In this document: positions 1 to 3,709 of the stretch, one piece after another
Layout of the letters: every line of letters starts with the position of its first letter
How positions within the stretch are numbered: the first letter of the stretch is position 1
Assembly (NCBI RefSeq): GCF_023516575.1
Contig: NZ_JAMGBE010000002.1
Coordinates: 434,001-498,000, forward strand
Length of the DNA: 64,000 nucleotides
DNA from: Sphingomonas hankyongi
Lineage (GTDB): Bacteria; Pseudomonadota; Alphaproteobacteria; Sphingomonadales; Sphingomonadaceae
Reading direction: 5' to 3'
The notes under the pieces: generated by a model
Database searches by the model: none
What the model was told of the DNA's origin: nothing
What the model saw: the letters and a program-made list of their open reading frames with translations, nothing else
Made by a program: the position numbers and the translations under genes

Positions 1-451
1 CTCCCGGGATCCCGACGATGGCCACTTCAAGTTCGCCTTTCTCCAGCATCTCGACCATCTGCGGTCCGCCGGCGTCAACGATCTGAACCTCGACGTCCGG
101 GTGCTGCGTTCGAAACTGAACCAATAGCTCGGAGATGAGCTGCGGGCCGATCGTGCACATCGTGCCGATGGTCAGCGTCGCCCGCTCCAGCCGTTTCACA
201 GCGCGCGCCTGGTCACGGGCAGCACGGCAGCTTTCTTCGACCGACTTCAGATAAGGCAACATCATCCGGCCAAGCTCGGAGAGGTGCGTGTTGCCGCGCT
301 CCCGGTGGAACAGCGGGCCGCCTAGTTCATGCTCGAGCTGCTGGATAGCCCGGGTCAGCGCTGGCTGACTGACATTGCACTGCTCCGCGGCACGCGTGAA
401 ATTCAGCGTCCCGGCCAGCGCAACGAAATACCGAACCTGCTGCATTTCCAT
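1..451 (-). CDS. LysR-family transcriptional regulator, N-terminal part (runs off left edge)
   Basis: Reading leftwards from an ATG at 451 (alternatives at 460 and 445), the translation begins MEMQQVRYFVALAGTLNF and continues TRAAEQCNVSQPALTRAI, the classical N-terminal winged helix-turn-helix of LysR-type regulators. It is followed by QLEHELGGPLFHRER and the start of the effector-binding domain (LTIGTMCTIGPQLISELL). The gene is cut by the window edge, so only about 150 residues are visible. It is divergent from the bufferin-type operon starting at 648. Control of that operon is possible from position but not shown by anything else in the sequence. Confidence 0.9.
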   Translation of the reverse strand, partial: MEMQQVRYFVALAGTLNFTRAAEQCNVSQPALTRAIQQLEHELGGPLFHRERGNTHLSELGRMMLPYLKSVEESCRAARDQARAVKRLERATLTIGTMCTIGPQLISELLVQFRTQHPDVEVQIVDAGGPQMVEMLEKGELEVAIVGIPG

Positions 452-612
452 AGGCAGCATCCCCACCAGTTTAGGGCTGCATGCCCATTACACGGTCGCA
501 ACGATACAGGCCAGCAGAGCAGTCATGCGCAGTGTGCATGGAACCGATGCGCACTCGGTCTGAGACTGTCGCGCCCGTTTCTCCGAACATGATCCAGGAC
601 CGGCCGACGAGT

Positions 613-635
613 CTTGTCGGCTCGGATCCGACAAG
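613..635 (+). promoter_or_regulatory. Stem-loop touching the ribosome binding site of the bufferin precursor gene
   Basis: CTTGTCGG (613-620) and CCGACAAG (628-635) are perfect 8-bp inverted arms around a 7-nt loop. The 3' arm contains the AAG that begins the Shine-Dalgarno AAGGAG (633-638), 10 nt before the ATG at 648. In RNA this hairpin would partly occlude the ribosome binding site. It could instead be a DNA operator. Which of the two applies is inference. Confidence 0.5.
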
Positions 636-647
636 GAGAGTTTTATT

Positions 648-926
648 ATGAAGATTAGCAACTTCGCCCTCGCGGGTGCGGTCGCGGCTTTCGCTTCGAC
701 GGCAGGCGTCGCGAGCCCGGTCAAGCCGCAGCCCAACAAGGACAAATGCTTCGGGATTTCGCTCGCGGGCCGCAACGATTGCGCGGCAGGAGCGGGAACG
801 ACCTGCGCCGGCACCTCCAAGCGCGATTACCAGGGCAATTCCTGGAAATATGTCGCCAAGGGCACCTGCACGGCGATCAACACCCCCAAGGGTCCAGGCT
901 CGCTGACCCAAATCAAGGGACGCTGA
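648..926 (+). CDS. bufA1: BufA1-type bufferin precursor (DUF2282 family), secreted cysteine-rich peptide
   Basis: A 92-residue protein with a signal peptide (residues 1 to about 22, ending GVAS) followed by a core with exactly four cysteines at residues 34, 45, 53 and 74, in the contexts [24 protein letters not shown] and KGTC. This is the signature of DUF2282 proteins. In that family the precursor is a ribosomally made peptide whose cysteines are modified by an MNIO enzyme, giving a periplasmic metal (copper) binder. A strong AAGGAG sits 10 nt upstream of the ATG. The modifying enzyme gene begins 2 nt after the stop. The family call is secure; the metal bound by this peptide is not visible from the sequence. 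Confidence 0.93.
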
Positions 927-928
927 TC

Positions 929-1756
929 ATGGTTCCCGCCGCTGGTGTCGGCTTCAAGGCCGAGCATTTTGCAGAGGCGCTCGCCGCGCCGGCGGCGGGG
1001 CTCTGGTTCGAGGTTCATGCCGAAAACTACATGGTCGCGGGCGGCCCCCGCATCGCCATGCTCGAAACGCTTCGCCGTCACCGGCCACTCTCGATCCATG
1101 GAGTTGGCATGTCGCTTGCCGGTTCCGCGGAGCCCGATCCTGAGCACCTCGGGGCGTTGAAGCGCCTCGTCGATCGCTTCGAGCCCGCACTCGTCTCCGA
1201 ACATCTCGCCTGGTCTCGCCTCGATGGCCGTTGCTTTCCGGACCTGCTTCCGGTGCCGCGCACCAACGAGGTGCTGACCCGGTGTGCAGCCAATATCGGC
1301 CGGGTTCAGGACGCGCTCGGACGCCAGATCCTGATCGAAAATCCGACCCATTATCTCGCGCTCAGTGATCACAGCTGGAGCGAGACGAGCTTTCTCGCCG
1401 AACTTGCACGCCGCAGCGGATGCGGCTTGCTGATCGACGTCAACAATGTGGCAGTCGGTGCCCACAACCTTGGCTACGATCCCGCAAGCTGGCTCCAAGC
1501 GATCCCCGCAGATCACGTCGGAGAAGTGCATCTCGCCGGGCATTCTCTCGACGCTGAAGGGACGCTGCTCATCGACAGCCACGACGAGCCGATCAGCGAG
1601 CACGTGTGGCGCCTGTACGAGCAATTCGCAGCACGGATCGGCCCCAGGCCCACTCTGATCGAACGCGACGGCAACCTCCCGCCCTTCGCGGATCTCATGC
1701 GCGAGCGGGACTATGCACAGAATATCCTGGCCGGAGAGCTGGCCCTTGCCGCTTGA
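929..1756 (+). CDS. bufB1: BufB1-type MNIO enzyme (DUF692 family), modifies the bufferin precursor
   Basis: A 275-residue TIM-barrel-type protein of the DUF692 / multinuclear non-heme iron oxidase family. Characteristic blocks run in order: FEVHAENYMVAGG near the N-terminus, LSIHGVGMSL, SEHLAW, LIENPTHYL, LLIDVNNVAVG, EVHLAGHS, DSHDEPISEHVW and TLIERDG at the end. They supply the His, Glu and Asp residues that bind iron in this family. The ATG at 929 was chosen over the longer upstream frame because it lies directly after the precursor stop and begins the conserved sequence. The last 44 nt overlap the next gene, indicating translational coupling. The expected reaction is oxidative modification of precursor cysteines (established for the family, inferred here). 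Confidence 0.93.
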   Translation: MVPAAGVGFKAEHFAEALAAPAAGLWFEVHAENYMVAGGPRIAMLETLRRHRPLSIHGVGMSLAGSAEPDPEHLGALKRLVDRFEPALVSEHLAWSRLDGRCFPDLLPVPRTNEVLTRCAANIGRVQDALGRQILIENPTHYLALSDHSWSETSFLAELARRSGCGLLIDVNNVAVGAHNLGYDPASWLQAIPADHVGEVHLAGHSLDAEGTLLIDSHDEPISEHVWRLYEQFAARIGPRPTLIERDGNLPPFADLMRERDYAQNILAGELALAA

Positions 1757-2468
1757 TCTCGTCCAGTTTCAGCGCGACTTTGCGGCCGCGCTTGGCGCTC
1801 CAGCACGAGGCGCGATCGCCGTATATCGCAACGCGGTTGTGCACGGGGCGGTCGAGGCGCTGCGCGCCAATTTTCCGGTGGTCGCACAAATCGTCGGACC
1901 AGAGATGTTCCAGGCGATTTCGGTCGACTTCGCGTCCGAATGCCCGCCTCGCCGGCCGGTCATGGCGCTGTACGGCGAGCGCTTTGCCGATTGGCTGGCA
2001 GCGCAGGAGTGGATCGCGGATATCCCGTATCTGGCGGATGTCGCGCGGGTGGAAAGGCTGCGCATCGAGAGCCTGATGGCCTCAGATGCCCTGCCTCTTT
2101 CGGCTGAGGAGCTCGGCAATGCGAATTTTGCCAGGCTGACATTGCATCCCGCGCTGCGGTTCGGCTGGCTTTCGACACCGGCGATGAGCATCTGGCTCGC
2201 CCACCAACGATCATTCGCATCGCCGCTTACGCCCGAATGGAAGGCCGAGGGGGCGCTGTTCGCGAGACCCACGGCCTACGTCATGCATTCGCCGCGGATC
2301 GGCCGGGCCGCGCATCGCATCCTCTTCGGTATCCGCCTCAGCGAGACTGTGGCCCAGGCGATGGCGGCAGCGTCGCGACTTTATCCTGACGAAGACTGCC
2401 CCGCCTTACTCTCCTCGCTCGTCAACTTGGGCGCTTTCGTTGCGCCAGCTGAAAGGAATCTCGCATGA
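1713..2468 (+). CDS. bufC1: BufC1-type partner protein (DUF2063 domain)
   Basis: A 251-residue protein with the DUF2063 N-terminal helical domain ([45 protein letters not shown]). In bufferin systems this protein partners the DUF692 enzyme and helps present the precursor. The ATG at 1713 gives a 44-nt overlap with the enzyme gene. An in-frame TTG at 1746 would start directly at the conserved block and is a realistic alternative. The stop overlaps the next start (ATGA at 2465-2468). Confidence 0.88.
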
Positions 2469-2923
2469 CCGCTGTGGCCAGATCCCTCCAATGGCGGATG
2501 CCCTTCGATTTCATGGCATCGACAGCTCGAACGCTTCTGCCGCCCTCATTGCTGCTATTGGTCCAGCGGCTCGGCATCGCCGCCGTCTTCTTTATGTCGG
2601 GCCGGACGAAGGTCGACGGCTGGCTGACGGTGAATGACAGCGCTTTTGAGCTTTTCCGCTCCGAATATGCACTGCCGCTGGTGAAGCCGGAGATCGCTGC
2701 ATATGCCTCGGCCTACAGCGAGCATTTGTTTCCCTTCCTCCTGACCCTCGGCCTATTCACCCGGATCTCGGCAAGCGCGCTCCTCGTGATGACCGCCGTC
2801 ATTGAGATTTTTGTGTATCCCGACGCCTGGCCGACGCATCTCAGCTGGGCGGGCTTGCTACTTCCCCTGATTGCGCTTGGCGGCGGGAAATTGTCGCTAG
2901 ACCGCTTCCTCAAGATTCCCTGA
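2465..2923 (+). CDS. DoxX-family membrane protein of the bufferin operon
   Basis: A 152-residue integral membrane protein with about four hydrophobic helices. The family pattern is visible in [23 protein letters not shown] near the N-terminus and [24 protein letters not shown] in the middle. DoxX-like proteins are regular fourth members of bufferin operons. Start and stop arrangement (ATGA overlap with the preceding gene) supports one transcript and coupled translation of all four genes. Its role is unknown; a redox or transport function at the inner membrane is possible. Confidence 0.88.
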
Positions 2924-2947
2924 CAGATGTCGAAAGGGCCGGAGCCA

Positions 2948-3709
2948 GTGTCCATTCAAGAGAGAGCCGCCCAGTTTCGGGCCCTGCATCGAGCAGGGTC
3001 CCCGTTGGCCCTGTTCAACGCCTGGGACGCGGGCAGTGCACGGGCAGTCGTCAAGGGCGGAGCGAAAGCAGTGGGAACCGGCAGCTGGTCCATTGCCGCA
3101 GCACATGGGTTTGAGGACGGCGAGAAGATCCCGCGGGAGACCAACATCGAGATCGTCCATAGCATTGTTGAGTCGGTCGATGTGCCGGTCACCGCCGACT
3201 TGGAAAGCGGATACAGCGCCGAGGCCGTCGGCGTCGGCGAAACCGTCCGCCTCAACATCGAGGCGGGGGCAATCGGCTGCAATCTCGAGGACAGCCAGCC
3301 GGCGGACGGAGGCCTCCGCTCGATTGAGGACGCCGCCGAACGGTACAGGGCGGCCCGGCGCGCCGCGGACGGCGCCTGCCCGGGCTACTTCATCAATGCC
3401 CGGACGGACGTGTTTGCCCAGCGCCCAGCGGACGAGCATGACTCGTCGATGGTGGAAGAAGCGCTTCGCCGCGCTAAGGCCTTTGCCGAAGCCGGGGCGG
3501 ACGGATTGTTCGTACCGTTCGTAACCGATCTCGAGTTGATCCGGCAGCTTGCCCGCCAGTCCCCTCTGCCGCTGAATGTCATGCGGGTCTCGACCACGCC
3601 TTCGATCGCTGACCTGAGCGCGGCGGGCGTCGCGCGGATTAGTCACGGGCCCTACCCGTACCTCATTGCAATGAGCGCGCTCGAGAGCGCGGCCCGAGAG
3701 ATAGCCTAG
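2948..3709 (+). CDS. Isocitrate lyase / phosphoenolpyruvate mutase superfamily protein
   Basis: About 253 residues from a GTG at 2948, giving SIQERAAQFRALH, the usual N-terminus in this family, with GGAG a few bases upstream. An ATG at 2927 would add seven residues but has no visible ribosome binding site. Family blocks are LALFNAWDAGSARAV, AVGTGSW, VTADLESGY (metal-binding region), IGCNLEDSQ, FINARTDVF, AFAEAGADGLFVP and SIADLSAAGVARIS. The superfamily cleaves or rearranges C-C or C-P bonds in 2-oxo or 2-methyl acids with magnesium. The specific substrate cannot be told; oxaloacetate decarboxylase and 2-methylisocitrate-lyase-like enzymes are candidates. It lies 24 nt behind the bufferin genes on the same strand and may be co-transcribed. 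Confidence 0.85.
   Translation: MSIQERAAQFRALHRAGSPLALFNAWDAGSARAVVKGGAKAVGTGSWSIAAAHGFEDGEKIPRETNIEIVHSIVESVDVPVTADLESGYSAEAVGVGETVRLNIEAGAIGCNLEDSQPADGGLRSIEDAAERYRAARRAADGACPGYFINARTDVFAQRPADEHDSSMVEEALRRAKAFAEAGADGLFVPFVTDLELIRQLARQSPLPLNVMRVSTTPSIADLSAAGVARISHGPYPYLIAMSALESAAREIA

Follow-up and report, generated by a model that had tools for sequence, protein, structure and literature searches.

Predicted 5'-terminal stem-loops in the leaders of bufferin precursor genes from Sphingomonadales and related bacteria

The bufferin operon

The DNA analyzed here (the window) is a stretch of 64,000 nucleotides from a genome of about 2.5 Mb in the order Sphingomonadales, and it carries a bufferin operon at 648-2923 beside a divergent LysR-family regulator gene (Table 1). 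A preliminary description made from the sequence alone had recognized a DUF2282 precursor, an MNIO enzyme, a DUF2063 partner, and a DoxX protein in that order and had read them as a bufferin operon; Pfam and NCBIfam matches bear out both the order and the reading. As described, the precursor has exactly four cysteines (residues 34, 45, 53, and 74), and its N terminus resembles a Sec signal peptide, judged by eye only. A profile search of the BufA protein against NCBIfam models gave no match, the HvfC and HvfX models of NCBIfam scored the BufC and DoxX proteins under their cut-offs, and the DUF2063 protein found no relative at E 0.1 among solved structures. bufB is the sole MNIO gene found in the genome. 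Going by its domain matches, the operon product is a putative periplasmic copper-buffering bufferin, and the cluster is of the ordinary type.

Table 1. Features of the bufferin locus, with positions in the window
Feature	Position	Strand	Basis
LysR-family regulator gene, divergent; runs off the window (whole in locus L060)	1..451	-	matches to Pfam HTH_1 and LysR_substrate over the full gene
Conserved 31-bp element: dyad GYATNGAWCCSATGC (536-550), 3 nt, CTCGGNCTGNGAC (554-566)	536..566	+	6/6 genomes, same spacing
ECF-type promoter remnant: GAGACT (562-567), 16 nt, CGAA (584-587)	562..587	+	predicted, from comparison only
Predicted 5'-terminal stem-loop, 14 bp, two bulges	597..629	+	RNA folding; predicted mRNA start
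Perfect 8-bp inverted repeat of the preliminary description, 613-620/628-635	613..635	+	sequence; competes with 597-629
Ribosome binding site AAGGAG of bufA	633..638	+	sequence
bufA, bufferin-1 precursor (Buf1/DUF2282), 92 aa, four Cys	648..926	+	PF10048, 83.1 bits (cut-off 22.4)
bufB, MNIO maturase, BufB type	929..1756	+	PF05114; NF050167, 353.8 bits (cut-off 310)
bufC, DUF2063 partner	1746..2468 (start by comparison)	+	PF09836
doxX	2465..2923	+	PF07681

The coupling of the genes is largely as first described, with a 2-nt gap between bufA and bufB (926 to 929) and an ATGA overlap between bufC and doxX (2465-2468). The 44-nt overlap reported between bufB and bufC depends on a start at ATG 1713. 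A TTG at 1746, 7 nt past GGAGAG, would reduce the overlap to 11 nt, and of seven relatives compared, four have a TTG start at the equivalent place (L040, L041, L042, and L047) and the other three an ATG nearby; TTG 1746 is therefore probably the start of bufC. All four bufferin genes are present, and the operon may extend past them, as a gene of the PEP-mutase/isocitrate-lyase family (2927-3709) begins 3 nt past doxX and is perhaps co-transcribed. It recurs at this place in one of 20 loci compared (L043, 68% identity), some of which end early. Modification had been expected at all four cysteines. In the accessible text of PMC12452194, Buf1 peptides are modified at the two central cysteines and the outer two form a disulphide, so that a change is expected at two cysteines rather than four.

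Promoter, regulatory setting, and predicted mRNA start

Leaders were compared at 120 loci taken, mostly in the order of listing, from among the matches listed (138 of 296 genomes matched); 20 of the loci come mainly from genus relatives, one being the window's own region. These loci hold 132 BufA open reading frames, and with L044 left out for want of an accepted start they gave 131 leaders. The Caulobacter sigma-F consensus, described with 5' RACE in the accessible part of PMC3511200, is GTAACC-N16-CGAA. The pattern GTAAC-N16-18-CGAA lies upstream of bufA in 83 of the 131 leaders, where shuffled sets average 0.15, and 81 leaders have the main spacing, that of GTAACC-N16-CGAA. A pyrimidine-purine step is enriched in the leaders 9-10 nt past CGAA. 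If this step is taken as +1, transcription in the window would start at about 596-597, where the 597-629 hairpin begins, and a stem at or next to +1 would fit this predicted start. Mapped Caulobacter starts lie at -7 for CC2907 and at -61 for CC3254 according to the same portion of PMC3511200; a start at -7 makes the CC2907 leader too short for such a stem. A genome scan seeking a Caulobacter genome whose start is mapped found Caulobacteraceae relatives but not Caulobacter itself.

GTAACC-N16-CGAA is absent from the window, which has GAGACT-N16-CGAA instead. The window genome (G000) belongs to a clade of six, with G030, G022, G094, G062, and G065, in all of which bufA adjoins the LysR gene and the -35 reads G[ACT]GAC. 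The exact patterns of their 31-bp element are absent from the other loci of L040-L159; within the clade, its CTCGG part together with the promoter occurs once per genome in all six, and its dyad has two copies in G094 and one in each of the other five. At four other loci (L046, L048, L049, and L043, from G086, G014, G010, and G076), nrsF lies between bufA and a divergent LysR gene; the first three have a sigma-factor reading frame beside nrsF (confirmed by Pfam for L046), and a strict sigma-F box precedes bufA in three of the four. NrsF (PF06532) was found in none of G000, G030, G022, and G094, while a control genome gave a match, and G062 and G065 carry NrsF elsewhere in the genome, away from the bufA locus. 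A sigF query gave no match in the window genome, in a search run without a positive control.

Taken together, this comparison suggests that the clade has lost a linked sigF-nrsF pair and that its promoter now stands with a new upstream element, a putative regulatory rewiring. A locally acting regulator of the 31-bp element is likely, and most simply it is probably the neighbouring LysR protein. Upstream of the window, a gene of carboxymuconolactone decarboxylase type adjoins the LysR gene (L060:9174-9569), so the regulator may formerly have served a different function. The loss of sigF-nrsF and the gain of a promoter element would make the clade a natural test of which bufferin controls matter. 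The leader hairpin is found in five of the six clade leaders (p<0.05 in three); the leader of G065 (L036) shows none downstream of its predicted start. A further branch of the genus includes L044, L045, L050, and L052. The last three lack both a sigma-F box and the new element, and all four loci carry a long G+C-rich hairpin ahead of bufA.

Alternative folds of the leader and the ribosome binding site

The preliminary description had drawn the leader with an 8-bp stem at 613-635 over the start of AAGGAG and had proposed that it gates translation of the precursor. Such a gate, formed by this stem or by a switch between it and 597-629, would hide the ribosome site until a signal arrives. The repeat does exist and extends onto the first bases of AAGGAG, and a perfect 8-bp repeat with a loop of 3-12 arises in only 0.6% of 20,000 mononucleotide shuffles of the 60-nt leader. 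Its left arm, moreover, has two exclusive partners, since pairing upstream builds 597-629. As the leader's fold, however, the 613-635 stem is outcompeted. When 594-650 is folded, the 597-629 hairpin reaches -21.2 kcal/mol against -14.4 kcal/mol with the 613-635 stem enforced, a difference of 6.8, and the mean pair probability of that stem is 2e-5 (0.10 in 594-690). Folding of 590-670, which had been put forward as a check, gives an overall z of only -1.5 and a probability of 1.6e-5 for the stem. When the fold is confined to the stretch between predicted start and ribosome site, its z is -3.2 (shuffle p 0.005).

Pairing of the ribosome site changes with the 5' end of the folded message, so the start site matters. 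In a message from 594, positions 634-639 are mostly unpaired (0.85-0.98 when folded to 650 and 0.54-0.87 to 690). In the fragment 590-670 the site pairs partly with 664-670, leaving it an unpaired probability of 0.13-0.81; when the message begins at 562, folding pairs the site with 579-584. This promoter stretch, TTTCTCCG, is complementary to 635-640, and by these models a message begun upstream of 580 would hide the ribosome site, as a gate requires. Among relatives, by contrast, the accessibility of the ribosome site averages 0.474 in 80 leaders and 0.473 in shuffled leaders, with 0.427 for 300 control genes. On folding energies and on the relatives' accessibility we reject occlusion of the ribosome site, and a translation gate of either form now seems very improbable.

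Start-anchored stem-loops across relatives

Boxed leaders were folded from the 7th nucleotide after CGAA to the ribosome site. The 81 Sphingomonadales leaders with the main spacing (80 of at least 25 nt and 76 of at least 28 nt) have a mean z of -2.0 when anchored in this way, with 72% below -1 and about 28% failing to reach that value. The mean pairing profile of 80 of them has two arms flanking a loop, at a constant distance from the promoter, where the shuffles are flat; about 30 nt further downstream the real and shuffled profiles coincide. The leader sequences fall into 59 clusters, with a cluster mean z of -1.8. In the 45 nt that precede the ribosome site, the 131 leaders average a z of -1.40 versus -0.27 for 300 control genes from the same loci (Mann-Whitney p 5.6e-13, with no correction for relatedness).

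Beyond the order, the same trend is present but more uneven. In the rest of the class, 17 of 65 leaders are boxed, with a start-anchored z of -1.47 and a 45-nt z of -0.81 (64 leaders); for other classes the figures are 3 of 45, -1.30, and -1.20. An additional set of named genomes, which includes Phenylobacterium, Brevundimonas, and Variovorax and from which 79 of 80 loci were parsed, has 46 of 79 leaders boxed (z -1.44; 45-nt z -1.01) and is not fully independent, because at least six of its loci repeat leaders already counted (e.g., L304, L328, and L331).

Of 135 distinct leaders, 67 have a perfect stem core close to the start, compared with a mean of 17.3 and a maximum of 27 in 200 shuffles. 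In a set of eight leaders, both partners have changed in seven of nine pairs, the share of cells that pair is 84.7% against 69.9% in shuffles, and the covariation score is not reached in any of 500 shuffles; this set leans towards structure, having been picked for equal loops and had three rows shifted one base by hand. An alignment of 18 leaders with MAFFT was set aside without a count, its 3' arms being out of register and its loops of differing length. A Variovorax set was likewise discarded as covariation evidence: 97.5% of its cells pair, but its changes affect one side only (GU type), and shuffling gives the same value as that observed. By these computations, many bufferin precursor genes have a leader with a start-anchored stem-loop whose sequence is not conserved. 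Relatives tend to keep a hairpin at this place, with differing sequence and with no trend towards hiding the ribosome site.

These data also bear on whether the window hairpin might be functionless, an instance of the folding to which G+C-rich leaders are often prone. The z for 590-670 is modest, and 23% of the control genes fall below -1 too. Chance nevertheless seems unlikely, given the much lower z once the fold is anchored at the predicted start and the recurrence of the hairpin across genera.

These loci contain 99 further sigma-F boxes, with a mean z of -0.43. To address specificity, they were sorted by downstream gene and folded over 30 nt beginning with the 7th after CGAA. None of 10 sigma-factor leaders falls below z -1 (mean +0.28), about half of them being only some 20 nt long so that the folded stretch enters the gene. 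Leaders of six-cysteine bufferin-2 type genes are below z -1 in 14 of 29 cases (10 of 17, mean -1.51, and 4 of 12, mean -0.76, in the two label groups), as are 60 of 81 bufferin-1 leaders, folded over 36 nt. Sixty unassigned sites, many of them likely chance or coding, include 20 below z -1 (mean -0.33). Gene labels came from short sequence patterns; seven of the 10 sigma genes were confirmed by ECF sigma domains, and the one bufferin-2 gene checked matched BufA2 at 101.3 bits (cut-off 60). Against sigF, Fisher tests gave 0.007 for bufferin 2 and, with segments of unequal length, 7e-6 for bufferin 1, relatedness being corrected in neither. Because the sigma-factor leaders lack the hairpin and the precursor leaders have it, the hairpin tracks precursor genes rather than promoter type. 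The bufferin-2 type genes lie near bufA (L061-L159) behind sigma-F boxes and often have start-proximal hairpins of their own.

The same contrast weighs against a DNA-level inverted repeat, whether as an operator or as a site of early transcriptional pausing right after the start, since the sigma-factor leaders share this promoter type. If RNA is what folds, GU mismatches should be better tolerated than AC. Both strands of the leaders fold equally (p 0.41), and GU is not clearly above AC, with 8 GU versus 9 AC among flanked mismatches and 80 versus 64 when counted more loosely (p 0.21 for a departure from evenness), as a DNA repeat would predict. Against it, the looser GU count exceeds the shuffle ratio (p 0.004), and the 59 sequence clusters hold no conserved half-site. 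The strand tests are mixed, and it is mainly because pairing is kept while sequence is free that we infer the selected object to be RNA; a DNA-level repeat we regard as improbable.

Candidate role in message protection and comparison with known systems

The reading that we prefer, and to which we give about an even chance, is that a 5'-terminal stem-loop anchored at the start protects the bufferin precursor message. With its start at about 597, the message would fold at once into 597-629, burying its 5' end and leaving the ribosome site out of pairing. The paired end would hinder RppH and 5'-end-dependent RNase E and so give a longer-lived precursor message. The accessible part of PMC3997798 describes RppH as favouring single-stranded 5' ends and RNase E as slowed by a paired 5' end. 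This preference and the RppH-family gene of the window genome (191 bits, cut-off 116) are the basis of the stabilizing role, which, like the start site, is a model prediction. That relatives tend to keep a hairpin despite differing letters suits a protective cap more than a lid on the ribosome site. Counting against this reading are the very short leader of the Caulobacter homologue CC2907, the lack of such a hairpin in L036, the boxed leaders that do not fall below z -1, the weaker 45-nt signal in the rest of the class, the equal folding of both strands, and the partial pairing of the ribosome site in 590-670.

RiPP precursors are assumed to be required in larger amounts than the enzymes encoded in the same operon. 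The earlier proposal that the precursor is dosed apart from its enzyme survives as message protection and not as translation gating. In a wider and more tentative form, which may well not hold, bufferin 1 and 2 precursors would share a sequence-free stem-loop at +1, an RNA cap kept despite the swap of regulator and absent from co-regulated sigma-factor messages, which raises the dose of precursor over that of maturase. If true, a positional stem-loop kept across many genera would offer a simple means of dosing precursor against enzyme. Among the papers listed, we found none joining DUF2282 with hairpin leaders, and the words for such a structure that were looked for in each of three bufferin/DUF2282 papers (PMC12452194, PMC3511200, and PMC5413113) and in PMC10304878 are absent from them.

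In gene content and order, the operon matches bufferin-1 clusters such as Caulobacter CC3254-CC3257 and Cupriavidus gigPABT, as far as the accessible portions of PMC3511200 and PMC10304878 describe them. Bufferin-1 clusters in the window's relatives have a sigma-F box and a divergent sigma/anti-sigma pair, whereas the window clade is without linked sigF-nrsF and has an altered -35 and a new element beside LysR. Like riboswitch and RNA thermometer leaders, the window leader has two exclusive pairings; unlike them, it shows no conserved aptamer and no match to Rfam families in 450-1000, and its relatives show no occlusion trend. The 5'-terminal stabilizing stem-loops of Escherichia coli ompA and papA lie at or next to +1, their sequence is unimportant, and the ribosome site is separate. 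With its predicted start, the window stem-loop would resemble them in lying at +1, in its free sequence, and in its separate ribosome site; it differs in being a prediction only and in belonging to a RiPP precursor family across many genera.
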